The notes under the pieces were generated by a model. The model did no database searches and had not been told where the DNA came from. It saw nothing but the letters and a program-made list of their open reading frames with translations. This document shows positions 28,326 to 52,424 of a stretch of DNA of 64,000 bases, piece after piece (position 1 is the first letter of the stretch; each line of letters opens with the position of its first letter). The position numbers and the translations under genes were made by a program. The stretch covers positions 3,906,001-3,970,000 of the forward strand of contig NZ_CP070304.1 of NCBI RefSeq assembly GCF_016917355.1. The letters are read 5' to 3'. Source of the DNA: Glaciimonas sp. PAMC28666 (GTDB lineage Bacteria; Pseudomonadota; Gammaproteobacteria; Burkholderiales; Burkholderiaceae_D).

Positions 28326-28334
28326 GCGATCCCG

Positions 28335-29855: not shown

Positions 29856-29895
29856 TTCTCATCTAAAACCCAATCCATCTATTCAGGAGATTTAT

Positions 29896-31242: not shown

Positions 31243-31413
31243 TCAACCAAGCGTTCCAATATTATCGGAAGCAACGGTGTACTTGATCTCGAGCCACGCC
31301 GCATTGAATCTGTCCTCGACGTTGCCCATGAATGCGTTTTTGTCGGCGTCTCTGACCTTGGCGTATCTAAAAGGCTGGGCCAGCAGCCACTTGACCCAAG
31401 CTTCGTAGATCAC
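31243..31413 (-). CDS. Small ORF translationally coupled to the carbamoylase-like gene
   Basis: A 56-residue frame that starts with GTG inside the GTGA overlap with the stop of the upstream gene (31410-31412) and ends at TGA 31243-31245. The sequence begins VIYEAWVKWLLAQPFRYAKV and is hydrophilic after a short amphipathic stretch. I do not recognise a family. The coupled start and open frame support a real or recently truncated gene, but chance cannot be excluded. Confidence 0.35.
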   Translation of the reverse strand: MIYEAWVKWLLAQPFRYAKVRDADKNAFMGNVEDRFNAAWLEIKYTVASDNIGTLG

Positions 31414-32315
31414 AAAACTTCAATAAGCAGCCCATATTTTTCCGGACGCCGATTGAGTTTCAAATTAAACTCCCCCTCCTTGCCGGGCAGGCACGCATCC
31501 AGATCACACTCGGCAACCGCGAGCTCGTCACCAATGCCGGAAGTTTCGGCGACAATCTCACCAGTAGGTGCAATGATGCACGTCCCTGCCATCATGTCGC
31601 AACCTTCTTCCAGCCCCGCCTTGGCAACTCCCACGACCCAGGTACTGTTCTGGTAAGCGCCCGCCTGCATACAAAGACGGTTGTGAAACAGGCGCTGAGC
31701 TGGACTTTGTGTCTGGCCTGGATTGAGCAAAGGCGTATTGTAGCCGAGCGTGATCAACTCCACCCCCTGGAGCGCAAGTATGCGGTAGGTTTCCGGCCAG
31801 CGTCGGTCATTGCAGATTGCCATGCCAACTTTCCCGCCAAAGGCGTCGAACACGGGAAAACCGAGGTCACCCACCTCAAAATACATTTTCTCGAGATTTT
31901 GAAATGGATGCTCCGGATGGATCTCACTGTACCCCGGCAGATGCACCTTGCGGTATTTGCCGACGATTTGCCCCTCCTTACTGACCAGTACCGAGCTGTT
32001 GAACCGCTGTTGACCGTCCAGTTCGGCGTATCCCAGGGAGAATCCGATGCTGAGACGTTTCGCCGCCTCAAACAGCGCGACCACAGGTCCTTCAGGCATG
32101 GTCTTTTCGTAATAGCTGTCAAGCTCCACCGGGTCGGTGACCTCCCAGTGTGGAAAGAAGGTGGTGAGCGCCAGTTCGGGGAACACCGCAAGGTCACAAC
32201 CACGGATACTGGCTTGCTCAAGCAGGGCGATCAGGCGTTTGACAACCATCTCTCTGGTTTCGGTTTTCGCGATTGGGCCAAGCTGAGCGGCCGCTACTTT
32301 AACAATACGTGCCAT
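31410..32315 (-). CDS. Carbon-nitrogen hydrolase, N-carbamoyl-D-amino-acid hydrolase-like
   Basis: 301 residues, nitrilase superfamily. The catalytic triad is in place: Glu47 (FPELAL), a Lys in KYRKVHLPG near residue 127, and a Cys in AICNDRRWPETYR near residue 172. These positions and the NDRRWPE context match D-carbamoylases, which release D-amino acids from N-carbamoyl precursors, rather than nitrilases or beta-ureidopropionases. No hydantoinase is in the window. It forms a tight minus-strand group with small unknown ORFs on both sides and is convergent with gcdH. Confidence 0.88.
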   Translation of the reverse strand: MARIVKVAAAQLGPIAKTETREMVVKRLIALLEQASIRGCDLAVFPELALTTFFPHWEVTDPVELDSYYEKTMPEGPVVALFEAAKRLSIGFSLGYAELDGQQRFNSSVLVSKEGQIVGKYRKVHLPGYSEIHPEHPFQNLEKMYFEVGDLGFPVFDAFGGKVGMAICNDRRWPETYRILALQGVELITLGYNTPLLNPGQTQSPAQRLFHNRLCMQAGAYQNSTWVVGVAKAGLEEGCDMMAGTCIIAPTGEIVAETSGIGDELAVAECDLDACLPGKEGEFNLKLNRRPEKYGLLIEVL

Positions 32316-32626: not shown

Positions 32627-33242
32627 AGATAGCTCCGGTGGAAGGGGCGGGAACGGGGCAACACCAAGGTGATGCAAACCGCGTTAGCGTATGCCCATGC
32701 GCATGCATTGGTAGCCGCTGAAAGCCCAAATCTAAAATGTATTTTCAGTTCAGCCTATTGAAATCATAGTCTATACCAATATCACCATAAAATAAAACGC
32801 TGCAATATTTTTTGCTTTCTGTGGATTATATAAAGCTGTAGCATAACAATCTGTTGCCCAGTCATCGTGCATTAAAAAAACGCGCTATGCCTTCTGCTCC
32901 TTTTAACCGCAACTGAAACGTTCCGTCGCAAAACGCTTTCGTGTGCGGCTCGGCCGGTTGGCAAGGACATGGTTTCAGATTGAACGTCTTCGTCACAGTA
33001 GGTTATCGATTATTTCATCTGATAAACCTAACATATTTGATACTTTTTCAGGTGCTTTTTCCATCTGCCAGTTCGGTGACGGAAGCCTCAATGCGCGGTT
33101 TAAAAGCGAGATTTAAACACTTTACAAGGAAGCTAACATCCGGTGTAGTTGAATCCTTTTTGGCGGTGAAGGCTGTTTCACGCGATGTGTAATCCTGACA
33201 TTATTACGATATAATCACAGACCAATCTTACATTCCGTGTAT
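32627..33242. other. Divergent intergenic region, no gene seen
   Basis: About 610 bases between the minus-strand hypothetical gene and the GntR gene, AT-rich in the middle. It must hold both promoters. TATAAT at 33210-33215 lies 28 bases before the GntR ATG and is followed by CACA; a matching -35 element at normal spacing is not evident. No convincing ORF or repeat found. Confidence 0.5.
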
Positions 33243-34055
33243 ATGACCTTATCGACTATTATTCCACCTCTTTCTGCCACGAAGGGCATCGCATTGCATC
33301 GCCAGATATTTCTGGTGTTGCGCGACGAAATTTCGCGCGGTATGTACCCCGATGGCGCGCTACCTAAAGAAGAAACGCTGTGCGAGCGCTTTGGCGTGTC
33401 GCGCATTACGGTGCGGCGCGGCTTGAATGATCTCGCAGCGCTCGGCGTAGTCGAACGGCGGCACGGACGTGGAACCTTCATAGTCGGTGGCCCATCGCAG
33501 GCACGTCCGGCACCTAGCCTAAGTATTATCGACGACCTCCGCAAAACCGCGATGGAAACGGTGGTGCAGGTGCTAGAGGTCGTGCAAGATGTGCCACCGC
33601 TCGACGTAGCGAAACTTTTACTGCTACCGGCAGATGAAAAGGCGGTCCACGCTTTGCGGCTTCGCTTCAATAGCAGCGGTGCCCCCGCCATGATAACCGA
33701 CGCATGGGTGCCTGCTTCGATCGGGCGACGGGTTACCGAGGCGGCGCTCAAGAAAAAAGCATTGTACGAAATCCTGATTGCGCAAGGTATTCAGTTCGGA
33801 AGGGTAGTGCAAGAAACTACCGCAGTTGCGTGTGATCCGCAGCGGGCCCGACTGTTGCGAACCGAAGTCGGCGCGCCGTTATTAAAACTGGTGCGTCTGA
33901 TGCACGACCTCGATGCAAGCCCGGTGCTGCACCTGACAGCATACATGCCAGCCGATCGTGCTCGGATACTGATGGAAATCCCGGGTGATAGCGTTAATAC
34001 GTTATTCGCCGGACAAATTATTATCGACGGCCCCGACCAAAATGGGCCCGACTAA
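33243..34055 (+). CDS. GntR-family regulator with UTRA domain
   Basis: About 270 residues. The GntR winged helix is at residues 18-80 (LHRQIFLVLRDEIS, CERFGVSRITVRRGLNDL, VERRHGRGTFIV), and a UTRA/chorismate-lyase-like effector domain (VPASIGRR, LLKLVRLMHDL, TAYMPADRARIL) fills the rest, typical of the HutC subfamily. The effector is usually the pathway substrate or an intermediate. The next functional genes downstream are the MFS carrier at 35105 and the lyase operon at 36927, which are the likely targets. ATG 33243 is used; GTG 33237 is possible. Confidence 0.9.
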   Translation: MTLSTIIPPLSATKGIALHRQIFLVLRDEISRGMYPDGALPKEETLCERFGVSRITVRRGLNDLAALGVVERRHGRGTFIVGGPSQARPAPSLSIIDDLRKTAMETVVQVLEVVQDVPPLDVAKLLLLPADEKAVHALRLRFNSSGAPAMITDAWVPASIGRRVTEAALKKKALYEILIAQGIQFGRVVQETTAVACDPQRARLLRTEVGAPLLKLVRLMHDLDASPVLHLTAYMPADRARILMEIPGDSVNTLFAGQIIIDGPDQNGPD

Positions 34056-35104: not shown

Positions 35105-36505
35105 ATGAAATACACCGCAGGACAGCGACTGGACCGCCTTCCAGAATCATCGTTCCACCGCCGATTGGCCGCATTGATCGGAGCGGGATTGTTCTTTGAC
35201 GCGTTCGATTTGTTTTTGGCAAGCGGCGTCATGATGGCATTGTCCACCTCGGGTTGGGCCACGATGGCGCAGAATGCCCAGTTTGCGTCGGCGGGAGCGG
35301 TCGGTGCATCGATCGGTGCTCTACTCGCCGGTTGGGTGGGTGACAAGTTTGGACGGCGCTTCGCTTTCCAATTCAATCTGCTCTTATTCGGCACCATGTC
35401 GATTGCCGCTGCCTGCGCGCCATCGATGACATGGCTCATCGTTTGCCGCTTCCTGATGGGAATTGGCCTGGGTGCCGAGGTGGTTGTCGGGTACTCGACC
35501 ATATCCGAGTTTGTTCCGCCACAAAAACGTGGCAAGTGGGGCGCGATTATCTTTTTCATTGCGACTTCCGCGCTGCCGGTATCCAGTCTCGTCAGCTATC
35601 TGGTGATTCCGCATTTCGGTTGGCGCTGGATGTTCGTCATCGCCGGGACTGGCGCATTCGTGGTCTGGTATTTGCGGAAAAAAATGCCTGAATCGCCCCG
35701 CTGGCTAGAATCCGCAGGCAGACATGCCGAAGCGCGTCAGGTCCTTGACGAGATCGAAGCGGAAGTATCAAAAAAACATATTCTTTCCGTACCCGTATCT
35801 ACTCCCGTCCCTGCTAAAGCGCCGACAGCAGCGCACTATCGCCTGATCGACCTGTTCAAACCGCCACTGCTGCGATCGACGTTGCTGGGTATGACGCTGA
35901 ACATCGTCCCATTAAGTGCCGTGTATGGGTTCATCGTCTGGCTTCCGACATTTCTTGTCAAACAAGGACTGTCGGTGACGGCCTCTCTCGGCCACACGGC
36001 GTTGATGAACACGGGTAGCCTGATAGGCATTTTTTTGGCGGGTCGTTATTCCGATAAATGGGGGCGCAAGAAAGGGATTATCGCGCTCTCCGTCATTACC
36101 GCTGGGTTAGGCTGGTGGTACTCCCATGCAGGGTCGATCGAAACAACGGCGTTAATCGGAATCACCCTGATTGCATCGATATATTGCATGGGCACATTAT
36201 CATTTTCCACTTATGTGCCGGAGCTATTTCCAACCGAGCTGCGGCTGCGTGGAACCAGCATATCGAGTACAGCGGGGCGCGTCGCGTCCATTCTTGCGCC
36301 TCAGGCGGTCAGTATTCTGTATGCCTATGAAGGCGGCGTAAGCGGCGTAATGTTCGCTATTGTCGGACTGATGTTGGCGCAGGCGATCATCATGGCGTTG
36401 TTTGGTATTGATATGACGGGCCGTTCGCTTGATGCACAGGCTATTGAAATTCCAGTCGAGACAGGCGTCGATGCGTCGACCGTTATCAAACCAAGGCAAT
36501 CGTAA
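35105..36505 (+). CDS. MFS transporter, aromatic/organic acid (AAHS-like) type
   Basis: 466 residues, 12 predicted membrane helices. FFDAFDLFLASGVM opens helix 1, GDKFGRRFAFQ is the loop 2-3 motif, and MGIGLGAEVVVGYSTISEF is the helix 4 region. MPESPRWLESAGR precedes the central loop and GRYSDKWGRKKG is the loop 8-9 repeat. Close relatives move aromatic or dicarboxylic acids with protons. AGGAGATAAGC precedes ATG 35105. The gene precedes the lyase/dehydratase operon by 420 bases and may bring in its substrate. Confidence 0.88.
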   Translation: MKYTAGQRLDRLPESSFHRRLAALIGAGLFFDAFDLFLASGVMMALSTSGWATMAQNAQFASAGAVGASIGALLAGWVGDKFGRRFAFQFNLLLFGTMSIAAACAPSMTWLIVCRFLMGIGLGAEVVVGYSTISEFVPPQKRGKWGAIIFFIATSALPVSSLVSYLVIPHFGWRWMFVIAGTGAFVVWYLRKKMPESPRWLESAGRHAEARQVLDEIEAEVSKKHILSVPVSTPVPAKAPTAAHYRLIDLFKPPLLRSTLLGMTLNIVPLSAVYGFIVWLPTFLVKQGLSVTASLGHTALMNTGSLIGIFLAGRYSDKWGRKKGIIALSVITAGLGWWYSHAGSIETTALIGITLIASIYCMGTLSFSTYVPELFPTELRLRGTSISSTAGRVASILAPQAVSILYAYEGGVSGVMFAIVGLMLAQAIIMALFGIDMTGRSLDAQAIEIPVETGVDASTVIKPRQS

Positions 36506-36798: not shown

Positions 36799-36930
36799 AT
36801 GTCTGACCCAGCAGCAAAGAACGAGAACGCGGCAGTAACAACGGCCGACCAGATTCTCAACATAAAACGGTGCGCATTCCGGGTCGCTCGAAATTTTACC
36901 CGGTTAGTTTTTTTCGCAGGATTAATATGA
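36799..36930 (+). CDS. Small ORF coupled to the lyase gene
   Basis: A 43-residue frame (starts MSDPAAKNENAAVTTAD) with a GAAGGG site upstream. Its TGA overlaps the ATG of the next gene (ATGA), so it could act as a leader that sets translation of the operon. No family recognised; it could also be the remnant of a longer gene. Confidence 0.3.
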   Translation: MSDPAAKNENAAVTTADQILNIKRCAFRVARNFTRLVFFAGLI

Positions 36931-37796
36931 AAGCTTCCTCTCTTAAAGCACGGCTGGCAAATCCCAGCATGTTGATCGTCCCGGGTGCCTACGACGGGAT
37001 CGGTGCCCGCCTGATAGAGCAGGCTGGCTTCGAAGCCGTTTATATGACCGGTGCGGGCACCTCGGCCGCACGTGGCTATCCTGACTTTGGTCTTCTTACC
37101 ATGAGCGAGATGGTCGATAACGCTGCCAGCATGGCGCGTTCTGTCGCAATTCCGCTGATCGCAGATGCCGACACCGGATACGGTAACGAGCTCAACGTGA
37201 CGCGCACGGTACGGGAATACGAGGCACGCGGCGTGGCCGGTATTCACATCGAAGATCAGGTTTCACCCAAGCGCTGCGGCCACCTCGACGGCAAAGAGGT
37301 TATCTCGCGGGTCGAATTCATATCGAAGATTCGTGCCGCGGTTGAAGCGCGCCGCACAACAGAATTCGTGATCATCGCGCGCACCGACGCGCGCGCCATG
37401 ATGAGTTTGGATGAAGCCATCTGGCGCGGTAATGCAGCACTCGAAGCCGGAGCCGATATGGTCTTCCTCGAGGCCATGCAAACACTGGAAGAAGTAGCCG
37501 CCGTGCCCAAGGCCGTTCGCGGCCCCTGCCTGCTGAACGTAGTGCCGGGTGGCCGCACTCCGATCTTCGATCTGCGTGAAGCGGAAGCGATGGGCTATAA
37601 GATGGCGATTCTGCCCGGATTGATGCTAATGGCCGCGATCGAAGCTGGCGATGCAGCGTTGGCGCAGCTCAAGGCCACGTACATGACGCCTCCCATGACA
37701 GGCACCGTGGCCCAGATATTTCGCCGTTTCGGTGCCGACGAATGGGACACCGTGCGCACGCGTTTCAACGCCGGTGCCATGATGGAAAGCAAGTGA
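36927..37796 (+). CDS. Isocitrate lyase/PEP mutase family C-C lyase (dimethylmalate or methylisocitrate lyase-like)
   Basis: 289 residues. Family motifs are present in order: VPGAYDGIGARLIEQAGFEA, DADTGYGNELNVTRTV (metal-binding Asp), HIEDQVSPKRCGH (catalytic Cys in KRCGH) and IARTDARAM. The KRCGH Cys is found in 2-methylisocitrate lyase, 2,3-dimethylmalate lyase and isocitrate lyase, and not in PEP mutase. The neighbours (aconitase-family dehydratase, PrpF-like isomerase) favour a dimethylmalate or other methylmalate-type substrate over the methylcitrate cycle, because no prpC-like synthase is present. The lyase gene is followed by the LeuC-like gene after 1 base. Confidence 0.88.
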   Translation: MKASSLKARLANPSMLIVPGAYDGIGARLIEQAGFEAVYMTGAGTSAARGYPDFGLLTMSEMVDNAASMARSVAIPLIADADTGYGNELNVTRTVREYEARGVAGIHIEDQVSPKRCGHLDGKEVISRVEFISKIRAAVEARRTTEFVIIARTDARAMMSLDEAIWRGNAALEAGADMVFLEAMQTLEEVAAVPKAVRGPCLLNVVPGGRTPIFDLREAEAMGYKMAILPGLMLMAAIEAGDAALAQLKATYMTPPMTGTVAQIFRRFGADEWDTVRTRFNAGAMMESK

Positions 37797-37797
37797 C

Positions 37798-39195
37798 ATG
37801 AGCCGTACACTGTTCGATAAACTATGGGATGCGCACGTGGTGCGCGAGTTGGGCGATGGCTGGGTGTTGCTGCACATCGATCGCCATTTGCTGCACGATC
37901 TGTCCGGCGCGCCCGCGCTGGCTGATATTGCTTCGCGCGGCTTGTCACTGCAAAATCCAGAACTGGCTTTCGCTACGCCCGATCATGTGGTATCGAGCGC
38001 GCCAGGCCGCACCGGCGAAACTTTTGCTCCCGGTGCGATTCTATGGGCCGGACTCAAGCGCGGTGCCGAAAAGGCGGGTGTGCGCTATTTTGACCTTGGC
38101 CAGACCGGTCAGGGTATCGTCCATGTGATGGGACCCGAGCTCGGCATTGTGTTACCCGGCACCACAGTGGTGTGCGGCGACAGCCATACTTGTACCAATG
38201 GCGCTATTGGCGCATTGGCCTTCGGCATCGGCTCGTCCGAGAGCGTCCATGTACTTGCCACGCAGACCCTGCGTCAGCAAAAGCCGAAGCGCATGCGAGT
38301 GCGTTTCGAAGGCACCATGGCGCCGGGAGTTGCCCCGAAAGATTTGATTTTGCATCTGATTGGCCGCCTGGGTGCTGCGGCCGGTGTTGGTTACGCGATC
38401 GAATATGCGGGTTCGGCGATTCGCACAATGAGTATCGAAGGGCGCTTGACGATTTGCAATTTGTCAGTTGAAATCGGTGCAAAGTTCGGCATGGTCGCGC
38501 CTGACGAAACGACCTTCGCCTATCTTAAAGGGCGGCCGTTTGCCCCCGCCGGTGCGTTGTTCGAGCAAGCTGTCGCACACTGGCGTACCCTGCAAAGTGA
38601 CGTTGACGCCGTCTTTGACCGGGAAGAAATCATTGATATCAGCGCCGTCGGACCGACCATCACCTGGGGTACCAGCCCGGAACACGTTATTGGCATCGAC
38701 GGTGTGGTGCCCGATCCAGCGCTAGCGCCTGATTCGGTCAGCCGTGACGCCTGGCAGCAGGCAATCGAATACATGGGATTAGCGCCGGGGCAGGCTATCG
38801 CCGGTACCAGGGTCGACTGGGTATTCATCGGCTCGTGCACCAACTCGCGCTTGTCTGACCTGCGCGCCGCGGCCGATGTTGTACGCGGGCGTCGGGTCGC
38901 CGTTGGCGTCACCGCCTGGGTTGTCCCGGGATCGCTGCAGGTTCAGCGCGAGGCTGAAGCCGAAGGCTTACAGCACGTGTTTCAAAATGCTGGTTTTGAA
39001 TGGCGCGAGCCAGGCTGCAGCATGTGTGTTGCGGCGAACGGTGAGCGGGTGCCACCTGAGGCACGCGCCGTGTCCACCTCGAATCGCAATTTCGTTGGTC
39101 GCCAGGGCCCGGGTGCACGCACCCATCTGGCCAGTCCCGCGATGGCCGCCGCCGCCGCCGTGACCGGTTTCATCACTGATGTCCGGAGCTTATGA
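37798..39195 (+). CDS. Aconitase-family hydro-lyase, large subunit (LeuC/DmdA-like)
   Basis: 465 residues. The [4Fe-4S] cysteines are visible in VVCGDSHTCTNGAIG (His and Cys), GSCTNSRLSDLRAAAD and PGCSMCVAANGE. Length and motif spacing match bacterial isopropylmalate isomerase large subunits and their paralogues such as dimethylmaleate hydratase DmdA. No leuA or leuB lies nearby, and the flanking genes are lyase and isomerase genes, so a role in leucine synthesis is unlikely. The 3' end overlaps the small-subunit gene by 4 bases. Confidence 0.87.
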   Translation: MSRTLFDKLWDAHVVRELGDGWVLLHIDRHLLHDLSGAPALADIASRGLSLQNPELAFATPDHVVSSAPGRTGETFAPGAILWAGLKRGAEKAGVRYFDLGQTGQGIVHVMGPELGIVLPGTTVVCGDSHTCTNGAIGALAFGIGSSESVHVLATQTLRQQKPKRMRVRFEGTMAPGVAPKDLILHLIGRLGAAAGVGYAIEYAGSAIRTMSIEGRLTICNLSVEIGAKFGMVAPDETTFAYLKGRPFAPAGALFEQAVAHWRTLQSDVDAVFDREEIIDISAVGPTITWGTSPEHVIGIDGVVPDPALAPDSVSRDAWQQAIEYMGLAPGQAIAGTRVDWVFIGSCTNSRLSDLRAAADVVRGRRVAVGVTAWVVPGSLQVQREAEAEGLQHVFQNAGFEWREPGCSMCVAANGERVPPEARAVSTSNRNFVGRQGPGARTHLASPAMAAAAAVTGFITDVRSL

Positions 39196-39842
39196 CCATG
39201 CAAAACTTTACCACCGTCGGCGGGCCCATTGCCGCTGTGATGCGCGCCAATATCGATACCGACGTCATCATCAGAGTTGAATGGCTTAGTATGCCGCGCG
39301 AGCAACTTGGTCCCTATGCGTTCGAGGCCCTGCGCTATTTGCCTGATGGCAGCGACGATCCTGAATTCATGCCAAACCGGCCGCCGTTTCGCGGTGCGCC
39401 GATTCTGCTTGCCGGAGTAAATTTTGGTTGCGGTTCGTCCCGCGAGACCGCCGTCTGGGCTTTGCAGGCGATGGGAATCCGTTGCGTCATCGCACCTAGC
39501 TTCGGCGATATATTTTCAAACAATTGCTTTCAGAATGGCGTGTTGCCGATCGTGCTGGCGCAAGCTCAGGTCGATGCGCTTGCGGCGCGCGCCGCGAACG
39601 GCCAGGCCTTTACGATAGATCTGGAGGAACAAACAATTATCGCTGCCGACGGCTACACTCTTGATTTCGGCATCGATACCTTGCGCCGTGCATCGCTGCT
39701 GGCAGGGCTCGATGAAATTGGCCTGACCTTGCGTGACGGCGCTCTTATTCTTGCCTGGCAAACTGCGGACCGCACGCGGCGTCCCTGGGTCTGGAAAGTC
39801 AATGATCCGCAAACGGAGCGTATTGATCTGGGCCTGGCCTAG
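39192..39842 (+). CDS. Aconitase-family hydro-lyase, small subunit (LeuD/DmdB-like)
   Basis: 216 residues, swivelling domain. NIDTDVIIRVEWL is the N-terminal segment, and NFGCGSSRETAVWAL is the substrate-recognition loop. In isopropylmalate isomerase the latter reads GSSREHAPWAL; the changes His to Thr and Pro to Val imply a different substrate side chain. It pairs with the large subunit through an ATGA overlap. The GRPWVW-like tail is unusual but the length is normal for the family. Confidence 0.87.
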   Translation: MTMQNFTTVGGPIAAVMRANIDTDVIIRVEWLSMPREQLGPYAFEALRYLPDGSDDPEFMPNRPPFRGAPILLAGVNFGCGSSRETAVWALQAMGIRCVIAPSFGDIFSNNCFQNGVLPIVLAQAQVDALAARAANGQAFTIDLEEQTIIAADGYTLDFGIDTLRRASLLAGLDEIGLTLRDGALILAWQTADRTRRPWVWKVNDPQTERIDLGLA

Positions 39843-39906
39843 CGTAGCCATAATGCGCCCAACAACACTACAAAACTGAAGCCCTTAATTTTGGAGCACG
39901 AAAAAA

Positions 39907-41346
39907 ATGAACACCACACAAGACTTGAACCGCGATACCGCGACGGATCCAGACGGCACCACTGGTCAGCTTGCCACCTGGCTGGCTAATCTGAAACTCG
40001 ACGACGTGCCGCAGCACATCCGGGATCGGGCTAAATACCTGACACTTGACGGCCTGGGATGCGCCATCGTCGGCGCCCAACTGCCCTGGTCGCGCAAGGC
40101 AGTCGAACTGGTGACGGCCCTGGAAGGACAAGGCGAGAGCACGGTAATTGGCTGGGGCATGAAGACCAGCGCACCGGCGGCGGCACTGCTCAACGGTACC
40201 TTTATTCAGGGTTTCGAACTTGATGATTTTCACCTGGCTGCACCGCTGCACAGCGCATCGCTGGTGATTCCATCGCTGCTGGCGAGCGCCGAAAAATTGG
40301 GCGGCATCAGCGGCGCAAAGCTGTTGCAAGGCGCGGTCGCTGGTTATGAAGTCGGGCCGCGTGTTGGTCTCGCATTGCACGGTACGCAAATGCTGTCGCG
40401 CGGCTGGCATTCCGGTTCCGTATTCGGCACCCATGCCAGCGCGGCGGCTGCCGGCACATTGTTGCAACTGAATCCGGCGCAATTCGAGGATGCGCTGGGG
40501 CTGGCGGGAACGCAGTCGGCGGGATTGATGGCCGCGCAATATGAAGCCATGTCGAAGCGCATGCACCACGGCTTCAGTTCGCGCAACGGCTTGTATGCGG
40601 CATTTTTGGCGGCCGGTGGCTACACCGGCATTAAACGCGTATTCGAGCGCGAGTACGGCGGTTTTTTGTCGACCTTTGGCGAAGGGCACGCGCCTGACGC
40701 AACGCAGATCACCAATGGCCTGGGCCAGCACTGGGAAATAGAACGCATCGTCATTAAACAATATGCGGCGATGGGTGGATTGCACGCGCCTCTGGATGCA
40801 TTGTTCGCGATCAATGCGCAGCGCACCTTGCATGCCGACGATATCGAACGCATCGAAGTTGATCTGTCGCATGCGGTCTACCACCATGGCTGGTGGGAAA
40901 TTGAACGGCCAATTACGCCGATCGGCGCGCAGATGAACATCGCCTACGCTCTCGCCGTGGCGATACTCGATGGCGCTGCACTGGTGCCGCAGTTTACGCC
41001 ACAGCGTATCAATCAGGATGACGTCTGGGCGCTAATTCCCCGCATCGTGGCGCGCCACGAACCTGAATTTGACAAAGGTGGTCCAGCCGGGCGCGTCCAG
41101 ACGCGTGTACGGGTCTTCTTCCGCGATGGTTCACAAATTGAGGAATTCCGCATGGCGCCGCGTTCTATTTTGCAACCGCTGTCAAAGGAAGAAATCGTGT
41201 CGAAATTTTGTCACTTGACCGACGGCTTGATCACCCCCGCGCGCCAGACTGAAATCGTGCGGGTCGTGCTCGCACTGGAAGAACTGACGGATACCGGAGA
41301 ATTGATCGCACTGTTGGCACCGAAAGTAGCGGCCGCCTTTGCATAA
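39907..41346 (+). CDS. MmgE/PrpD family protein
   Basis: 479 residues. DDVPQHIRDRAKYLTLDGLGCAI and GFELDDFHLAAPLHSASLVIP mark the family, with GWHSGSVFGTHASAAAAG and MSKRMHHGFSSRNGLYAAFLA further on. Known members are 2-methylcitrate dehydratase (PrpD), itaconate-metabolism cis-aconitate decarboxylase, and many uncharacterised enzymes on methylated di- or tricarboxylates. In a locus that already has an aconitase-type dehydratase, it may act as a second dehydratase, decarboxylase or isomerase. No prpB/prpC context supports the methylcitrate cycle. Confidence 0.87.
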   Translation: MNTTQDLNRDTATDPDGTTGQLATWLANLKLDDVPQHIRDRAKYLTLDGLGCAIVGAQLPWSRKAVELVTALEGQGESTVIGWGMKTSAPAAALLNGTFIQGFELDDFHLAAPLHSASLVIPSLLASAEKLGGISGAKLLQGAVAGYEVGPRVGLALHGTQMLSRGWHSGSVFGTHASAAAAGTLLQLNPAQFEDALGLAGTQSAGLMAAQYEAMSKRMHHGFSSRNGLYAAFLAAGGYTGIKRVFEREYGGFLSTFGEGHAPDATQITNGLGQHWEIERIVIKQYAAMGGLHAPLDALFAINAQRTLHADDIERIEVDLSHAVYHHGWWEIERPITPIGAQMNIAYALAVAILDGAALVPQFTPQRINQDDVWALIPRIVARHEPEFDKGGPAGRVQTRVRVFFRDGSQIEEFRMAPRSILQPLSKEEIVSKFCHLTDGLITPARQTEIVRVVLALEELTDTGELIALLAPKVAAAFA

Positions 41347-41453
41347 CGACGCCATTTTTTGCGTCAGGGATCTGTCGTTTTGATCCCAAAAGCGGGCAAA
41401 GTGGACAACAGCAATAGCGCTCTTTCCTGACATACATTTAAGTGGAAGAAAAA

Positions 41454-42596
41454 ATGAAAAAATCATATTTGCCACATGGAAAAATTTCAGCCGTGTTCAT
41501 GCGTGGTGGCACGAGCAAGGCAATCATGTTTCATGCGCGCGATCTGCCTGCCGAGCGCGCCGATTGGGATGCGATATTCCTGGCGGCGATGGGCAGTCCT
41601 GATCCCAGTGGACGGCAACTGAACGGAATGGGCGGTGGCGTCACCTCGGTATCCAAGGTGTGCGTCATTGGCCCTTCATCGCGCCCGGATGCGGACGTTG
41701 ACTATACTTTTGCCCAGGTGATGGTCAAGGAGGCACGGGTCAGTTATGCAGGCAATTGCGGCAACATGTCGGCCGCAGTGGGTCCGTTTGCAGTAGACGA
41801 GGGGCTGATTGCTGTCAACGGAGCAGGTGCGGAAATACGTATTCACAATACGAACACAAAGAAAATCATCCGTTCGACCATTTTAGTGGAAGACGGCAAA
41901 GCGGCGATCGACGGCGACCTGGCAATACCAGGCGTGGCAGGGACGGGCGCTCCGATTCGTCTGGATTTTCTTGAACCGGGCGGCTCCGCGACCGGCAAAT
42001 TGTTACCATCTGGAAATCCGTTTGACATGCTGGACGTGCCGGGATTTGGTTTGATTGAAGTGTCCATGGTGGACGCGGCCAATCCCTGTGTATTCGTGGA
42101 CGCGGCAGGTGAGGGACTGACCGGTGTAGAGTCACCGGAGGCACTTGAGCGGAATCTGGCGGCGCTGGCGCGTTTGCATGCGATCGGCGCACAGGCCTCC
42201 GTCGCGATGGGACTGAGTGCGACGTTCGGGGAGGGGCTGAAAAACCTACCCCTGATCGGGATCATTTCGAGGGCACAAGTTTCCACGACTCTGTCGGGTA
42301 CCAGCATTCCAGCCGACGCTGCCGAGCTATGTATTCGCATGCTCTCGAGTGGCCAGCCGCATAGGGCCTTGCCCGGCACAGGCTCAGTCTGCACTGCCGT
42401 TGCGGCCCGCATACCAGGCACCTTGCCACATCGCCTGGCTTCCGCTGCCAACGGCAATGCAATTCGACTTGCCCATCCTTCCGGCGTCATCGTGGTTGAC
42501 TCGGAGGTAACCGAAAATCAAGGGACCTTGCATGCCGTGCGGGGCTCTGTGTATCGGACTGCCCGCCGCTTGTTTGATGGTTTTGTGTATTACTAA
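41454..42596 (+). CDS. PrpF-family isomerase (methylitaconate isomerase-like)
   Basis: About 380 residues, two diaminopimelate epimerase-like halves. AVFMRGGTSKAIMF opens the protein, GGVTSVSKVCVIGP contains Lys68 at the position of the proposed catalytic Lys of PrpF, and YAGNCGNMSAAVGPFAV and GTGSVCTAVAARI are further family segments. Family members isomerise aconitate, methylitaconate, methylaconitate or 4-oxalomesaconate double bonds. Paired here with a dehydratase and a lyase, a methylitaconate to dimethylmaleate type step is an attractive inference. ATG 41454 follows GGAAG; GTG 41442 is the alternative. Confidence 0.87.
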   Translation: MKKSYLPHGKISAVFMRGGTSKAIMFHARDLPAERADWDAIFLAAMGSPDPSGRQLNGMGGGVTSVSKVCVIGPSSRPDADVDYTFAQVMVKEARVSYAGNCGNMSAAVGPFAVDEGLIAVNGAGAEIRIHNTNTKKIIRSTILVEDGKAAIDGDLAIPGVAGTGAPIRLDFLEPGGSATGKLLPSGNPFDMLDVPGFGLIEVSMVDAANPCVFVDAAGEGLTGVESPEALERNLAALARLHAIGAQASVAMGLSATFGEGLKNLPLIGIISRAQVSTTLSGTSIPADAAELCIRMLSSGQPHRALPGTGSVCTAVAARIPGTLPHRLASAANGNAIRLAHPSGVIVVDSEVTENQGTLHAVRGSVYRTARRLFDGFVYY

Positions 42597-42664
42597 ATGC
42601 AGGACTGACGCGCTGAAAAAAATTTAAATCAGCCGATCAACAACATGAAAGAGGAGTAATAACC

Positions 42665-43801
42665 ATGCCTACCCAGACGCTTATTCTTACCGGCGACATT
42701 AACCTGATGAACGTTGGCCCTGGTGACAATCCGTTTGTCAATGTGCGCGACGAACTTCGGTCAGCCAACCTGGTGTTCTCAAACCTGGAGTGCTCGCTTT
42801 ACAATCCGCCCCACGGGCAGTCCATTGAACAAGAAGGTTTCTTTGCCGATCCCGAGATTGGTGGTGCCGCACTGATAGACGCCGGGATTGGCGCAGTGGG
42901 AATCGCCAACAATGTCAATTACGGCGAGGCACCAATTCGGGCCTCGATTGCACAACTCGACCGCCTGGGTATCCCGCATACAGGCGCTGGCGTGAATCGG
43001 AAGGCGGCCAACGCCCCGATCATCGTGGAGCGAGACGGTGTGCGTTATGGTTTCCTGCAGCGCAGTTCGGTTTACTGGGCAACCAACCATGAGGCTGGCG
43101 ACGAAGATACTGGTATTGCCGTCATCATGGGCCATACGGCTTATCACGTTCCCATGTACCGTGATCGCCGCGGCATGGCCCCTTTCAATCGGCCCGGCAT
43201 TCCTCCGCGGGTCGTTACATGGTGCGACCCGGAATATCTCCGCACTTTTGCCGAGGAAGTCGCCGCTTTGCGCAGCCAGGTGGACGTGCTGGTGGCGTCC
43301 TGCCATTGGGGACTGCAAGGAGAAGTATTCGATTACATGACTGAAATTGCGCATACGGCGATCGATGCCGGTGCCGATATCGTGATGGGCCACGGCCCTC
43401 ATAATCCGCTCCCGGTGGGCTACTACAAAGACAAGCCGATTTTCTACGGGCTCGGAAGTTTTTGCTTCCACACGGGTCACGAGGGAATACAGCACGGTGA
43501 CTGGGTCGGACTCATGATCCGCGCTGAAATCGAGGACCGCAAGTTAGCACGTACGGCATTCCAGTTTGTGCGGCACAGCGCGGTGAACGAGACGGTTCGC
43601 TGCACTGTTGATGAAGAATCGAAGATGCTACTCAAGCTTTCAGAAGCGAGTCTGGCGTTTGGCGCAAAGTTCGAACCTGATACGCAATTTGTTACGGTGG
43701 TACCCGTTGGCGAATCGGGTCAAGCGCGTGCCCCCTCCACGGCGGCATTCGTGCGTCGGGCACCGCCTCCCGTTCCGACGCGCGGTGATACACCGCGCTG
43801 A
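42665..43801 (+). CDS. CapA-family (PGA_cap) metallophosphatase-like protein
   Basis: 378 residues. LTGDINLMN at the N-terminus and ANLVFSNLECSLY, then ADIVMGHGPHNPLPVGYYKDKPIFYGLGSF, are the motifs of CapA/PgsA-type calcineurin-like proteins. No signal peptide is seen, so unlike capsule CapA it is probably cytosolic. GAGGAG precedes ATG 42665. Similar cytosolic CapA proteins are found in catabolic operons, where they may be hydrolases; a function in poly-gamma-glutamate is not supported here. It is the last gene of the lyase operon before a hairpin. Confidence 0.8.
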   Translation: MPTQTLILTGDINLMNVGPGDNPFVNVRDELRSANLVFSNLECSLYNPPHGQSIEQEGFFADPEIGGAALIDAGIGAVGIANNVNYGEAPIRASIAQLDRLGIPHTGAGVNRKAANAPIIVERDGVRYGFLQRSSVYWATNHEAGDEDTGIAVIMGHTAYHVPMYRDRRGMAPFNRPGIPPRVVTWCDPEYLRTFAEEVAALRSQVDVLVASCHWGLQGEVFDYMTEIAHTAIDAGADIVMGHGPHNPLPVGYYKDKPIFYGLGSFCFHTGHEGIQHGDWVGLMIRAEIEDRKLARTAFQFVRHSAVNETVRCTVDEESKMLLKLSEASLAFGAKFEPDTQFVTVVPVGESGQARAPSTAAFVRRAPPPVPTRGDTPR

Positions 43802-44083: not shown

Positions 44084-45514
44084 ATGACTTCTGTTAACAC
44101 GAAAAGTGCGACGCACGACATGGCCGGTGCAAACAATACCATTGCGGCGGAGGACATGATTAGCGCCCGGATCGATCGCCTTCCGGCGACGAGGGCAGTA
44201 TGGACGCTGGTAGTCCTGCTTTCGATGGGTGGATTTTTTGAGATTTACGAGCTGCTTTCTACTGCGTATATCGCGCCTGGCATGATCAAAAGCGGCATCC
44301 TCAGCGCGAGCACCGCTAAGCTGTTTGGCTTGAATGGCCTGGCCGCTTTTATTGCGGCAAATTTCGCGGGCCTGTTTGTGGGAACCTGTGTTATCGGCTC
44401 AGTGGCGGATCGATTTGGCCGGCGCTCGGTCTTCACTTTCGCATTGCTCTGGTATTCCATCGCCGCTGCCGTAATGGCATTTCAAAACGATGCACAGAGT
44501 CTGCTTTTCTGGCGCTTCATGGTCGGCATTGGTCTAGGACTGGAACTGGTCACCATCGATGCCTATTTGAGTGAAATGGTGCCCAGGCATATCCGCGGCC
44601 GGGCTTTCGCGGTCTCCACGTCGATCCAGTTTCTAGCCGGGCCGACGGTGGCGCTGATGGCATGGTTGTTGGTGCCGTTGCAGCCTTTCGGCATTGATGG
44701 CTGGCGCTGGGTGGTATTGGCAGGTGCGTTTGGGGCACTGCCGATTTGGGCCATCCGCAAGGGCCTGCCAGAAAGCCCGCGCTGGCTGGCAGCGAGCGGG
44801 AAAGTCGACCGGGCGCAAAAGATCGTTGCCCTGCTTGAGAAAAAAGTCGCTGCCGAGAGCGGTAAACCGTTGCCTCCTGCACAGCCTGTGAGGCGAATTG
44901 AGGAACATAGAAAATCCGGATTTAAAGACTTGTGGACCCGTAAATATGCGCCCCGTACGACGATGCTCGTTCTCTTTCACGTTTTTCAAAGCATTGGAGT
45001 TTACGGCTTTGTCAATTGGGCGCCGACTTTCCTGGTCAAGCAGGGCATCACTCTCACGACCAGCCTGAGCTACACGCTGGCGATAGCGATTGCCATGCCG
45101 GTTGGACCGGCGCTGGCTATTTTCTTCGCCGACAAGCTGGAGAGAAAATGGCAGATGGTCATATCGGCATTTGTATTGGCGATTGCCGGGCTGATATTTG
45201 GGCACACTCTCAATCCCATTATTATCGTGTCAAGCGGAATCGTCATGACACTGGCTGCAGCGATTTTGGCGTACAACTTTCACGCCTATCAAGCTGAACT
45301 TTACCCTACGCGTATCAGAGCGATGGCCGTAGGATTCGTTTATTCATGGAGTCGCCTTTCGGGTGCACTGGGCGGTTTCCTGGTCGCGTTCACATTGCAT
45401 GGTTATGGTGTCTCGGGGGTCTTCATCCTTATTGCTTCATGCATGGGGATGGTCATGCTTGCCATCGGATTCCTTGGGCCGAAAACCAAAGACCTGGCGC
45501 TCGAATCGATCTGA
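44084..45514 (+). CDS. MFS transporter, organic acid type
   Basis: 476 residues, 12 predicted membrane helices. GGFFEIYELLSTAYIAPGMI is helix 1, VADRFGRRSVFT the loop 2-3 motif, VGIGLGLELVTIDAYLSEMVP helix 4, and GLPESPRWLAASGKVDRA the segment before the central loop. It has the same AAHS/sialate-like architecture as the carrier at 35105 but is divergent in sequence, so it probably moves a related acid. It lies 283 bases after the CapA-like gene and 187 before a porin. ATG 44084 follows GGGG; an in-frame TTG precedes it. Confidence 0.87.
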   Translation: MTSVNTKSATHDMAGANNTIAAEDMISARIDRLPATRAVWTLVVLLSMGGFFEIYELLSTAYIAPGMIKSGILSASTAKLFGLNGLAAFIAANFAGLFVGTCVIGSVADRFGRRSVFTFALLWYSIAAAVMAFQNDAQSLLFWRFMVGIGLGLELVTIDAYLSEMVPRHIRGRAFAVSTSIQFLAGPTVALMAWLLVPLQPFGIDGWRWVVLAGAFGALPIWAIRKGLPESPRWLAASGKVDRAQKIVALLEKKVAAESGKPLPPAQPVRRIEEHRKSGFKDLWTRKYAPRTTMLVLFHVFQSIGVYGFVNWAPTFLVKQGITLTTSLSYTLAIAIAMPVGPALAIFFADKLERKWQMVISAFVLAIAGLIFGHTLNPIIIVSSGIVMTLAAAILAYNFHAYQAELYPTRIRAMAVGFVYSWSRLSGALGGFLVAFTLHGYGVSGVFILIASCMGMVMLAIGFLGPKTKDLALESI

Positions 45515-45700: not shown

Positions 45701-46861
45701 ATGCATAAAACAGGTTTAGCCTTAGCCGTTCTTTCCATTTTTTCGACTGCTGCCTATGCGCAATCGACATCGAATGTTACCTTTTATGGCACGGTAGATG
45801 AGGCCGTTGCTTATACCAACAATGGTGCTTCTTCTCCAAAGCCTTCGAACACGGTCCTGGTTAGTTCAGGAATTTTCGCGTCTTCGCGTTGGGGCATGGA
45901 AGGTACAGAGGATCTCGGTGGCGGACTCAAGGCGAAATTTCAGCTTGAGGCAGGTTTTGATGCGGATACTGGTGCCATGAAGACTTATTCGGGCAACCCT
46001 TCCACGGCCACGCCGGCGGCACCGGGCGGTGCCTCCATATCAGGCCTCTTCAATCGGCGTTCTTATGTTGGACTAGAGGGAAATTTCGGCGGCGTTTTCG
46101 TTGGTCGTGACTATACCCCGCTGTATTGGGCCATTAATCGAAGTGATCCGCTAAAGTTAGGCTTGTACGGCAACGTGCAGGAAATCGTACAACTATCCGG
46201 CACGGGGTCCGACCGCTTCGGACGCGCCAGCAACGCGGTGTTCTATGTGTCGCCCAAGCTTGACGGTTTCCAGGGGCGCGCTATGTATAGTCTGGGTTCA
46301 GAGAGCCCCGGCGGAGTGGGTGCTGCGCCAAAAGATGCGAACCACATGTGGGGCATTTCTGGCGAGTACGTGCTCGCAGGATTGACTATTACTGGTGCCT
46401 ACCAACAGATTCAACTGCCGACGGTCGCCGGTACAGGGACGGCGGCTAGCTTCACTGGTGCCACCGGGACGCGCAAGGATATCGTCGCGGGTGCCAAATA
46501 TGTCTTTGGCGACTACTCGGTGGCGGGAGGCTACTTTAATACGAAGCAACCAGTCGCGCATACTGACGCCAGCGACATTTGGCTGGGAGGCACCGCCCAG
46601 TTGGGCAACGGTACCGTATTGGTGAACTTCCAACGCATGCGCCTGGACGCGGCAGTTGGGGCCGCGCCGAAGGCGACGATCTACGCTCTGAGTTATGTCT
46701 ATCCATTATCGAAACGGACATCCGTCTATGCGTCATCAGGCATTGTCAAGAATGGCTCCACGGCGGCCTTCGCGCTGGCAGCGAGTGACGCCACCGTCGC
46801 AGCAGCGGCACCCGGTGCTGCCGTCAAAGCGATCGCACTGGGCATCTCCCATACTTTCTGA
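45701..46861 (+). CDS. Outer-membrane trimeric porin, Burkholderiales type
   Basis: 386 residues from ATG 45701. The signal peptide ends in AAYAQ, NVTFYGTVDEAVAY is the first strand, and GTEDLGGGLKAKFQLEAGFD is present, with a final Phe. It pairs with the MFS carrier ahead of it as inner- and outer-membrane steps of uptake for the lyase operon. The longer frame from 45635 would add residues before the signal peptide and is rejected. Confidence 0.9.
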   Translation: MHKTGLALAVLSIFSTAAYAQSTSNVTFYGTVDEAVAYTNNGASSPKPSNTVLVSSGIFASSRWGMEGTEDLGGGLKAKFQLEAGFDADTGAMKTYSGNPSTATPAAPGGASISGLFNRRSYVGLEGNFGGVFVGRDYTPLYWAINRSDPLKLGLYGNVQEIVQLSGTGSDRFGRASNAVFYVSPKLDGFQGRAMYSLGSESPGGVGAAPKDANHMWGISGEYVLAGLTITGAYQQIQLPTVAGTGTAASFTGATGTRKDIVAGAKYVFGDYSVAGGYFNTKQPVAHTDASDIWLGGTAQLGNGTVLVNFQRMRLDAAVGAAPKATIYALSYVYPLSKRTSVYASSGIVKNGSTAAFALAASDATVAAAAPGAAVKAIALGISHTF

Positions 46862-47240: not shown

Positions 47241-48884
47241 ATGAATGGCTTGATGATGTCCGGGAAGTTACTGATTTCCTCGTTGATTGTGCATGCGGAT
47301 CGTCATCACGGCGATACCGAAATTGTGTCGCGTCGGGTCGAGGGTGATATGCATCGGTACACGTACCGCGACTGTCACCGTCGTACGCGCCAACTGGCCA
47401 ACGTACTGACCGGATTAGGCGTCAAGGGTAGCGATCGGGTGGCGACACTGGCGTGGAACGGGTATCGGCATATGGAGCTTTACTATGCGATATCCGGAAT
47501 GGGTGCGATCATTCACACCGTCAATCCGCGCTTGCATCCGGAGCAGGTGACCTATATTGCGAATCACGCGGAAGATCAGTATCTCTTCTTTGACCTAACG
47601 TTCCTGCCGATGGTTAAATTGATCGCAGCGCGTTGCCCAACGGTCAAGGCGTTCGTCGCCATGACCGACCGCGCGCATATGCCGCAGGACGCCGGGATTG
47701 CCAACCTGTTGTGCTACGAAGACTTGATGGAAGCCGCATCAGATGATTATGTTTGGCCCACTTTCGACGAAGATACGGCATCTACTTTATGTTATACCTC
47801 TGGCACGACCGGCAACCCGAAGGGCGTCCTGTACAGTCACCGCTCAACCCTGCTGCACACCTATGCAGCCGCCTTGCCTGACGCGCTGAACTGTTCTGCG
47901 CGCGACGTCATCTTGCCAGTGGTTCCGATGTTTCACGTGAATGCCTGGGGCCTTCCCTATATTGCTTGCATGGTCGGTGCCAAACTGGTGTTTCCAGGGG
48001 CAGGAATGGATGGCAGATCACTCTATGAGCTGCTTGAAACGGAACACGTGACGATGGCGGCAGGCGTGCCGACAATCTGGCAAGGTTTGCTGAGTTACGT
48101 GGAAACGAACGATGTGAATTTTTCGACGGTGACGCGCACGGTGATTGGCGGCGCGGCCTGTCCACCCGCCATGTTGCGCAAGTTTCAGGACGACTTCGGC
48201 GTGCAGGTGTTGCACGCGTGGGGGATGACCGAACTGAGTCCGCTCGGCACCGTCTGTGCACTCAAATCCCGGCAGTTAAAGGCTAGTCCGGAAGAACGCT
48301 ATGCAGTTCAGGCGAAGCAGGGCCGTGCGGTGTTTGGCATCGATATGAAAATTGTCAGCGAGGACGGGCACGCGCTGCCGTGGGATGGAAAAACGGCAGG
48401 GGAATTGCTGGTGCGCGGACCCTGGGTTGCAAACAGCTACTTCAGAAATGAAGGTGATGCCGGCCTCCAGATGGATACTAATGGTAATGGCTGGTTTCCG
48501 ACCGGTGATATCGCTAATATTGATGCCGATGGCTATCTGCAGATCACCGACCGCAACAAAGATGTCATCAAATCGGGGGGCGAATGGATCGGCTCGATCG
48601 ATCTCGAGAACATCGCGATGGGGCATCCGGCGGTTTTCATGGCGGCTTGTATTGCGGTGAAACACCCGAAATGGGATGAGCGTCCGCTACTGGTGGTTGT
48701 CCGGAAGCCCGGTATCGCTCTGGACCGCGATGCATTGCTTGCTTTTTATGAAGGCAAGATCGCCAAATGGTGGACCCCCAACGACGTGGTATTCGTCGAC
48801 GCGCTTCCCATGGGGGCCACCGGGAAGGTGCTGAAAAACAAGTTGCGCGAACAGTTCATCGATTATGCTTTCCCAACGGGGTGA
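47241..48884 (+). CDS. Acyl-CoA ligase, AlkK-like medium-chain type
   Basis: 547 residues, ANL superfamily. The phosphate-binding loop [19 protein letters not shown] is near residue 180, the [12 protein letters not shown] acyl/AMP motif near 320, and [25 protein letters not shown] near 425. The adenylation Lys region at the end reads [13 protein letters not shown]. The [18 protein letters not shown] segment is typical of AlkK and related medium-chain ligases rather than benzoate-CoA ligases. It activates a carboxylic acid that would be degraded by the beta-oxidation block to its right. AGAGAG precedes ATG 47241. Confidence 0.88.
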
Positions 48885-50417: not shown

Positions 50418-50440
50418 GAATTCCTCCGGGCAGTCTAGCT

Positions 50441-51607: not shown

Positions 51608-51641
51608 CGACACTCCTGAGCCAATCCCGGTGGGATGGCCA

Positions 51642-52424
51642 TCATTGAAAAACAGGCAGGCGACGTTCGGCCATGGCCCGGACCCCTTCTTGAAAATCTG
51701 CCGAACCGAATTGCTTCAGCTGAACTTCCAGCTCCCTTGCATTCACGCGCCGCACCTGCTCCGCCAGATCCCCGTGCAAAGTCTGACGGGTGCTTTGCAC
51801 GGCCCCTGGGGAGGACGCTGCGATTTCCCCGGCAAGCTGCCGGGCGCGCGAAAGCACATCATCCTTTGCCACCAACTCCTCCGCCAGGCCAATGCGAACC
51901 GCCTCGGTCCCGTCGATGCGACGTCCGGTATAAAACAACAGCGATGCTTTCTGTATGCCGATCAATCGCGGTAAGGTATGGCTCAGGCCAAACCCTGGAT
52001 GAAACCCAAGCCGGTTGAAGTTGAAGCTGAAGCGGGTCTCCGGGCAGACAATCCGGAAGTCCGCCAGCAATGCCAGTCCGGCCCCGGCCCCGATGGCTGC
52101 GCCTTGTACAGCCGCAACAATTGGCTTGCGAACGTCAAACAAGCGCATGGCCTGATGATAGAAGAGCGCAGGATCAATCGCACCGGCACCTCCCGAGTTA
52201 AGGGAAAAATCAGCGCCGGCACAAAACGTTTTGCCCTCGGAAGTGAGCACAATGGCGCGACAATCAGTCTGCGCATCGAGCTCGGCAAACAGGTCCGCGA
52301 GGCGGCGGATCATGTCGGTATTGGCGTAGTTATAAGGAGGCCGCCGGATGGTCACTGTCGCAACATGGCCGTCTTTGCTGACGGTGAGCTCGGCATCGGT
52401 ATCAGCATGGTTATCGGCACTCAT
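51642..52424 (-). CDS. Enoyl-CoA hydratase/isomerase family protein
   Basis: 260 residues, crotonase fold. [15 protein letters not shown] is the oxyanion segment and [18 protein letters not shown] the second core motif. The position normally PExxLGxxPGxGG reads [20 protein letters not shown], so the second catalytic Glu is absent; isomerase or hydrolase activity is possible. It overlaps the thiolase gene by 4 bases. Confidence 0.88.

Follow-up and report, generated by a model that had tools for sequence, protein, structure and literature searches.

A lyase, LeuC/LeuD, MmgE/PrpD and PrpF gene cluster of Glaciimonas sp. PAMC28666 as a candidate coenzyme A-independent route for branched dicarboxylic acids

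A stretch of 64,000 nucleotides of Glaciimonas sp. PAMC28666 (contig NZ_CP070304.1; hereafter the window), corresponding to positions 3906001-3970000 of a 5,230,360-base genome in one contig, was analysed for a row of six genes that may encode the coenzyme A (CoA)-independent breakdown of branched dicarboxylic acids. The genes lie head to tail on the plus strand. In window positions, they encode a lyase of the isocitrate lyase/phosphoenolpyruvate (ICL/PEP) mutase superfamily near the dimethylmalate-lyase branch, proposed to act on 2-substituted malates (36927-37796), the LeuC-like large subunit (37798-39195) and the LeuD-like small subunit (39192-39842) of a presumed catabolic Fe-S hydro-lyase, an MmgE/PrpD-family protein (39907-41346), a PrpF-family allylic isomerase (41454-42596) and an accessory protein of the CapA/PGA_cap family (42665-43801). 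All matches were far over the Pfam cut-offs (lyase on PEP_mutase, 178 bits; LeuC on Aconitase, 526; LeuD on Aconitase_C, 89; MmgE_PrpD_N, 240, and the C-terminal domain, 120; PrpF, 382; PGA_cap, 143). The intergenic gaps were 1, -4, 64, 107 and 68 bases, from which a single transcript across the six genes is inferred. A preliminary description of the same DNA had already listed these genes as one adjacent row and had reported a KRCGH motif in the lyase, and both statements were confirmed. Promoter- and terminator-like sites were not more frequent than in shuffled sequence and were not used as evidence.

The lyase scored 263 bits on the NCBIfam prpB model, below the cut-off of 354. Its best solved relatives were 2,3-dimethylmalate lyase (DML; 198.4 bits) and oxaloacetate acetylhydrolase (OAH; 197.7 bits), which we take to originate from A. 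niger and C. parasitica, respectively, followed by a chain named carboxyvinyl-carboxyphosphonate phosphorylmutase (187 bits) and methylisocitrate lyases (at most 181 bits). In all lyase comparisons the DML reference is the fungal A. niger enzyme and not Dml of Eubacterium barkeri. A quick tree of 102 rows separated the PrpB set with a support of 100, and the window lyase fell outside this clade, in line with the preliminary description; DML and OAH, at the end of a long branch, were placed with 67 bacterial lyases including that of the window (support 87). The motifs YMTGAGT, KRCGHL and LLN match DML, and the PrpB motifs YLSGGGV, KRCGHRP, EFGxTP and SAxRAM are absent. At the position of a serine that is presumably the marker of OAH, the window lyase has proline, as does DML. 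The K[KR]CGH loop (KRCGH) and the metal-site motifs DADTG and EDQ of the superfamily are kept, and the AlphaFold model is confident (mean predicted local distance difference test score, pLDDT, 90.1).

LeuC reached 606 bits on the NCBIfam leuC model (cut-off 560) versus 265 on the IPMI_arch model, and LeuD reached 172 bits on leuD (cut-off 116) and 77 bits on the LeuD/DmdB-family model, under its cut-off of 109. The preliminary description had called the pair LeuC/LeuD-like and had likened its chemistry to that of DmdAB, a hydratase of aconitase kin; the profile scores give a LeuC/LeuD lineage and not the DmdAB type, an assignment made by models and not by direct comparison with DmdA or DmdB sequences. 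A quick tree of 56 LeuC rows placed that of the window outside the leucine-biosynthesis clade and within a set of 23 lyase-linked LeuCs (Shimodaira-Hasegawa-like approximate likelihood-ratio test, SH-aLRT, 99). The biosynthetic set, comprising the LeuCs of E. coli, of the Glaciimonas genome and of five genomes of the family, had a support of 100, and four more of the LeuC paralogs in the Glaciimonas genome fall into it as well. Since similarity of the lyase was the criterion for collecting rows, the tree demonstrates separation and not a universal lyase linkage of this LeuC type; six of eleven named family loci yielded no usable frame and were excluded.

The two kinds of small subunit also differ in the substrate loop, which was equated with the published region by our own placement at the position following the DTDxII motif. 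The window LeuD reads RVEWL there (RIERL in most of its clade) versus PKQFL in the biosynthetic form. The pattern R[IV][ED][RW]L was found in 21 of the 22 LeuDs accompanying the set of 23 LeuCs that includes the window's (the exception, L092, has PIHRL, and the contig of L079 carries no LeuD), and additionally in loci L048, L200 and L201. Outside the clade the loop arginine was present in 0 of 20 distinct parsed LeuDs, and P-x-x-x-x in all 20, namely PKQFL or PKQFM in the Glaciimonas paralogs and E. coli, and P-x-x-x-x in the other lyase-linked LeuDs. The survey contained 53 rows (24 printed), among them six duplicates and two unparsable rows, and was entered by more than 35% identity to the window LeuD or as an added reference. 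In Arabidopsis this loop of the isopropylmalate isomerase small subunit determines substrate choice, according to PMC7308503.

The converse linkage, a window-type LeuC without the lyase, was examined on plasmids. Of 13 plasmid records with a LeuC of at least 60% identity, nine were inspected; the lyase was alongside in eight (H41-H44, H46-H49) and was not found in one (H45). This last record, plasmid pLA3 of Novosphingobium pentaromativorans US6-1 (L201), has a window-type LeuC by identity (70%), a RIERL-type loop and no lyase in the 21 kb examined. Its LeuCD pairs with a CoA transferase and a 3-hydroxy-3-methylglutaryl-CoA (HMG-CoA)-lyase-like gene among aromatic ring-cleavage genes, a set that may carry out the same step in a CoA-dependent form. 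In Methylobacterium, the lyase and the CoA transferase/HMG-CoA-lyase-like genes stand side by side with this LeuCD type, possibly offering two ways to cleave the product of one hydratase. This hydratase type thus occurs with the lyase, with the CoA transferase and HMG-CoA-lyase-like gene, or with both, which suggests a 2-substituted malate as its product. A search of a class sample with the window LeuC (E ≤1e-175) returned the Glaciimonas genome only (1 of 369).

The MmgE/PrpD protein forms one clade (support 100/99) with orthologs of 63-74% identity from eight other loci, where they are encoded no more than 10 kb from the lyase (L070, L072, L075, L077, L080, L081, L082 and L086). Such loci, in which MmgE accompanies lyase, LeuC and LeuD and sometimes a CoA ligase, belong to Variovorax, Advenella, Caballeronia, Paraburkholderia and alphaproteobacteria. 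All nine cluster proteins retain the columns H99, H150, K198 and K266 of IDS epimerase and carry Gln, Glu and Leu at the columns of H85, D88 and Y145, respectively, where 145 is presumably the number of the tyrosine. The residue set of the active site, and the assignment of the extra tyrosine to two-base isomerases, follow PMC12290011. A two-base epimerase of the IDS epimerase or methylsuccinate isomerase type was set aside, since Leu replaces the second-base tyrosine in nine of nine proteins; with this tyrosine missing, a dehydratase or decarboxylase would be expected. At E ≤1e-120 an ortholog occurred in one of 392 family genomes, that of Glaciimonas itself. The PrpD-like MmgE of this genome (own_L162) is located at 1.07 Mb, and the cluster protein is not PrpD-like. 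With a mean pLDDT of 67, the structure model of the cluster protein was too poor to be used.

PrpF had its best solved relative in the methylitaconate isomerase (Mii) of E. barkeri (297 bits), followed by a PrpF structure (245) and oxalomesaconate (OMA) isomerase (202). The likeness to Mii drawn in the preliminary description was nevertheless not supported by the tree: among 21 isomerases, eleven proteins from ten sister loci formed a clade (100/99) that is sister to Mii (90/81), and the window PrpF lay outside both, grouped with five others (95/90). Lys73 and Cys107 (S. oneidensis numbering) were kept in 21 of 21 rows; their catalytic role in PrpF is described in PMC5690661. Five relatives of 50-56% identity, out of eight listed at ≥50%, were inspected for their neighbours. 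The Hydrogenophaga gene adjoins tcuA, and that of Shinella adjoins tcuB-tcuA and acnA. On plasmid pLP414 of Rhodococcus opacus (L203) PrpF occurs with MmgE, GntR, a lyase, AcnA, a citrate symporter and TctAB, and no PrpC was listed in the 21 kb examined. The Sagittula gene adjoins a lyase annotated as prpB, with a 6-hydroxynicotinate reductase further away, and the neighbours in Agrobacterium were uninformative. Three of the five thus stand beside tricarballylate or aconitate genes (TcuA, TcuAB or AcnA). Aconitate isomerases exist within the PrpF family, as stated in PMC11495376; for Mii, PMC4720413 gives methylitaconate as substrate and reports activity on itaconate as well. The isomerase of the window cluster thus belongs to another clade, one that leans towards aconitate, and apart from the PrpF of the prp locus the Glaciimonas genome contains no further Mii-like gene.

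Recurrence of the cluster was assessed on 96 mapped loci, 91 of them with the lyase and 59 of these with 5 kb or more of sequence to either side. The loci were mostly picked by lyase similarity (L200 and L206 entered via LeuC or PrpF), and the gene maps of sister loci are partial. Fully flanked loci were divided into close (lyase identity at least 61%, n=24) and distant ones (below 61%, n=35), and neighbours were counted within 10 kb. LeuC of at least 45% identity was present in 20 of 24 close versus 5 of 35 distant loci, the Mii-like isomerase in 9 versus 0, MmgE in 6 versus 0, the ligase in 4 versus 1, GntR (≥45% identity) in 10 versus 0, a TctC-like protein in 11 versus 8, a YrdC-like protein in 5 versus 1, and CapA in 1 versus 0. 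In four of the 35 distant loci the neighbour was a shorter LeuC-like protein (30-33% identity), labelled DmdA-like by length and score only. The gene set is regarded as beyond chance because the lyase-LeuC-LeuD core recurs across many genera. Within the family the cluster is rare: among 195 genomes one other (G017) has a close relative of the lyase (77%), and four further genomes of the same genus gave one match each at E ~1e-47 to 1e-48, comparable to the Glaciimonas PrpB. The cluster may have been exchanged horizontally.

The surrounding genes, all on the plus strand, include a GntR/UTRA regulator (33237-34055), probably of the cluster, a first major facilitator superfamily (MFS) carrier (35105-36505, with the ATG at 35105 chosen as start), a second MFS carrier (44084-45514) and a Gram-negative porin (45701-46861). 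One MFS carrier, the porin and the GntR regulator had been named in the preliminary description, and both carriers, the porin and the regulator were found by Pfam. Carrier 1 is 421 bases away from the lyase gene, and its nearest model, an aromatic acid/H+ symporter, scored below cut-off; carrier 2 has relatives of 55-59% identity in the sister clusters L070, L072 and L082. That parts list stood in its entries but omitted a recurrent AMP-forming acyl-CoA ligase (47241-48884) and counted CapA as a part. The ligase scored 969 bits on the 3-(methylthio)propionyl-CoA ligase model (cut-off 822). Homologs are 61-68% identical in L068, L077, L080 and L116 and 46% in L124, so that 5 of the 91 lyase loci sampled have a ligase near the lyase; it accompanies MmgE only in L077 and L080 (2 of 8 MmgE loci). 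The cluster is flanked by two sets of acyl-CoA beta-oxidation genes (23953-31083 and 49131-59017). The CapA-like protein starts with MPTQTLILTGDINL, in which no obvious signal peptide was seen by eye. It was rejected as a core part, as it is present in 1 of 24 close fully flanked loci; of all 91 other lyase loci sampled, a single one (L068) carries its gene at a distance of 10 kb or less from the lyase. As a new pathway part, CapA is therefore peripheral and MmgE is limited to a sub-set of clusters, which narrows what had been claimed for both.

Genes for the methylcitrate cycle and leucine synthesis are located elsewhere in the genome. The prp locus (genome 3707174-3713243) has PrpB at 3707174, AcnD at 3709594, PrpF at 3712074 and, by inspection, a prpC-like frame of citrate-synthase type between PrpB and AcnD. 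It lies about 230 kb upstream of the cluster and not just outside the window, and there is no prpC- or acnD-like gene among the cluster genes. A 628-aa frame elsewhere in the genome was named PrpE-like by inspection. At 4.94 Mb, leuC is found with leuD- and leuB-like frames. In a comparison with 30 family genomes, 28 besides its own gave a match to this LeuC; the best match was 75-92% identical in 27 of them and 50% in one, and the corresponding value for the window LeuC was 52%. The statement that a B12-dependent mutase is lacking was upheld, as the genome has two matches to the B12-binding family PF02310, both distant from the cluster and read by inspection as MetH-like and radical-S-adenosylmethionine (SAM) proteins.

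The gene set, the clades, the conserved catalytic residues and the recurrent linkage are observed, whereas each of the reactions, the order in which they run and the substrate are inferred. The reading held with slightly more than even confidence is that the operon serves the CoA-independent breakdown of an imported branched 1,4-dicarboxylate, possibly with a third carboxylate, via a 2-substituted malate. PrpF would move or flip the double bond of an itaconate- or aconitate-type acid, and MmgE/PrpD would take water or CO2 off a feeding substrate, both leading to a 2-substituted maleate-type acid. The LeuC/LeuD hydro-lyase with its own loop would hydrate this acid to the 2-substituted malate, and the dimethylmalate-type lyase would split the C2-C3 bond. 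Its products would be a free carboxylic acid and a 2-oxoacid, the latter being pyruvate in the case of a methyl substituent. The AMP-forming ligase may turn the released acid into its CoA ester, CoA being used only at this final salvage; a release of free acid by the lyase would explain a ligase in the cluster. With a methyl substituent the sequence would be itaconate to citraconate to citramalate to pyruvate plus acetate. Alkylitaconates occur in fungi, and 2-benzyl- and 2-isobutylmalates in plants; these compounds would fit as substrates with longer substituents. The isomerise-hydrate-cleave chemistry proposed in the preliminary description fits these genes as free-acid chemistry and is supported, an equivalence to the dimethylmalate/nicotinate route is unsupported, and the methylated C5-C6 acid that was named as substrate is one candidate.

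Several observations weigh against this reading. LeuC and LeuD pass the cut-offs of the leucine-synthesis models, and in the LeuC tree the lyase-linked proteins are not a single lineage: ten of them are nearer to the biosynthetic set than the window's, and six are of the shorter type. DML and OAH are nearly equal in lyase score, and Foldseek matches of the lyase model in the PDB rank the subfamilies alike, with no separation. The ligase starts about 380 bases after the porin and may belong to the adjacent beta-oxidation genes. Among the 24 close loci, just 6, 9 and 4 have MmgE, the Mii-like isomerase and the ligase, respectively, and four have no LeuC inside 10 kb. The order of steps is uncertain because L070, L072, L081 and L082 carry MmgE but no PrpF in the stretch examined. 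The neighbours of the PrpF relatives, finally, point to tricarboxylates.

Because of these relatives, the main rival is that an analogue of citrate or aconitate is imported and degraded in the manner of the methylcitrate cycle, which is considered rather unlikely. MmgE would then be a dehydratase, PrpF an aconitate cis/trans isomerase and LeuCD a hydratase forming an isocitrate analogue, from which the lyase would yield a 2-oxoacid and succinate; a citrate-synthase step would be absent because the acid is taken up. This is consistent with the TcuA, TcuAB or AcnA neighbours, with the Rhodococcus locus joining MmgE, lyase, AcnA, citrate symporter and PrpF, and with an MmgE clade that lacks the epimerase tyrosine and retains the His/His/Lys/Lys set. 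TctC-like binding proteins near 11 of 24 close lyases agree as well, yet they also occur near 8 of 35 others. The lyase, however, agrees with DML and has none of the PrpB motifs (YLSGGGV, CGHRP, EFGxTP, SAxRAM), the window cluster has no PrpC-like gene, the Rhodococcus MmgE and lyase are only 26% and 42% identical to those of the window, and succinate would need no dedicated ligase.

A literal dimethylmalate pathway, from methylitaconate via dimethylmaleate and dimethylmalate to pyruvate and propionate, is improbable. DML and Mii are the top solved relatives of lyase and PrpF by score, and the sister-cluster isomerases are sister to Mii; against this stand the position of the window PrpF outside the Mii clade, a hydratase that does not score as DmdAB-type, the fact that no B12 mutase was seen and the PrpE-like frame, beyond which propionate would need no ligase. 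Slightly less credit still is given to two independent modules, with lyase-LeuC-LeuD acting on a 2-substituted malate and MmgE/PrpF on trans-aconitate or another acid; many loci do have the former without MmgE or PrpF, but the genes share one strand with short gaps, and the eight further loci repeat the proximity of MmgE and lyase. Redundant copies of methylcitrate-cycle or leucine-biosynthesis genes, as the NCBIfam names and the passed leuC and leuD cut-offs would have it, are very improbable and already contradicted: the cluster was rejected as a METHYLCITRATE cycle (methylcitrate) or leucine synthesis in view of the separate loci elsewhere and the separate clades of lyase and LeuC.

Some further genes were recorded near the lyase loci. 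Sua5/YrdC-domain proteins of about 242-271 aa occur near 7 of 91 lyase loci, in tandem twice in Variovorax (L068:15843-17337, L077:16363-17097, L091:12891-13637, L116:7287-8102 on the minus strand and L124:15845-16573, with matches also in L076 and L093); three that were scanned scored 37-48 bits versus a threonylcarbamoyl-AMP synthase cut-off of 123. In Advenella kashmirensis a TauD-family dioxygenase (L080:7744-8841, minus strand) lies between two lyase-LeuCD modules, and a cluster of related frames recurs in eight sampled loci. In the window itself, positions 31413-32315 (minus strand) encode a carbon-nitrogen hydrolase with a score far under the cut-off of its nearest model, N-carbamoylputrescine amidase.

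The branched-dicarboxylate reading was compared with four known systems. The end steps of nicotinate fermentation in E. barkeri proceed in the order Mii, DmdAB, Dml, and the same order of allylic isomerase, hydratase and C-C lyase on free acids can be written for the cluster; it differs in the LeuC/LeuD-scoring hydratase with its own loop, another PrpF clade and the extra MmgE and ligase, and no B12 mutase was seen. The methylcitrate cycle (PrpB, PrpD or AcnD plus PrpF) shares the superfamilies of ICL/PEP mutase lyase, MmgE/PrpD, PrpF and aconitase, whereas the window cluster has no synthase, a lyase outside PrpB and a separate prp locus. The CoA-dependent itaconate/methylsuccinate pathway (Ict, Ich, Ccl, MmgE, Mcd) likewise concerns branched C5 diacids and includes an MmgE/PrpD member (PMC12290011). 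In the window, by contrast, cleavage would be by a lyase of free-acid type, and the MmgE clade lacks the isomerase-type second-base tyrosine. HbzIJ of the gentisate pathway, presumably a maleate hydratase of LeuC/LeuD type and set beside the window pair by description and not by sequence, is a further case of LeuC/LeuD paralogs in catabolic loci. A pair near gentisate-like frames was seen by inspection in the Glaciimonas genome; unlike the window pair it groups with the biosynthetic LeuC and has the loop PKQFM.

This genome holds two such side loci, both described by inspection. About 41 kb past the cluster (L158, genome 3987000-4000000), a LeuC/LeuD pair is preceded by hydroxylase, FAH-type hydrolase, gentisate-type dioxygenase and MFS carrier frames and followed by a malate/tartrate-dehydrogenase-like frame, probably a route from gentisate to D-malate. 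The other pair (L156, genome 749000-762000) is near a maleate isomerase-like frame and an MFS carrier.

All the enzyme families have been described before, but their combination, the loop of the hydratase and the clade of MmgE proteins appear to be new. Searches of an open-licence library showed no title or abstract describing the cluster, the loop or the MmgE clade, and subscription papers could hold one. A tentative proposal, made at less than even confidence, is that the clusters define a CoA-independent alkylmalate pathway not described before, comprising a new subfamily of hydratases marked by the RIERL loop and a new MmgE clade. Bacteria would use the pathway on branched acids such as itaconate, alkylitaconates or 2-substituted malates of fungi and plants, the released acid passing via the ligase to beta-oxidation, and the hydratase would be a module combinable with either the free-acid lyase or a CoA transferase and HMG-CoA-lyase-like enzyme.

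Public records label these genes as "3-isopropylmalate dehydratase" and the like, and the pathway is masked by such annotation. If the proposal is true, the LeuD loop would be a simple means of telling this catabolic subfamily from the enzymes of leucine synthesis, and one would have in the cluster a CoA-free counterpart to the itaconate and citramalate routes, with enzymes useful for branched diacids.

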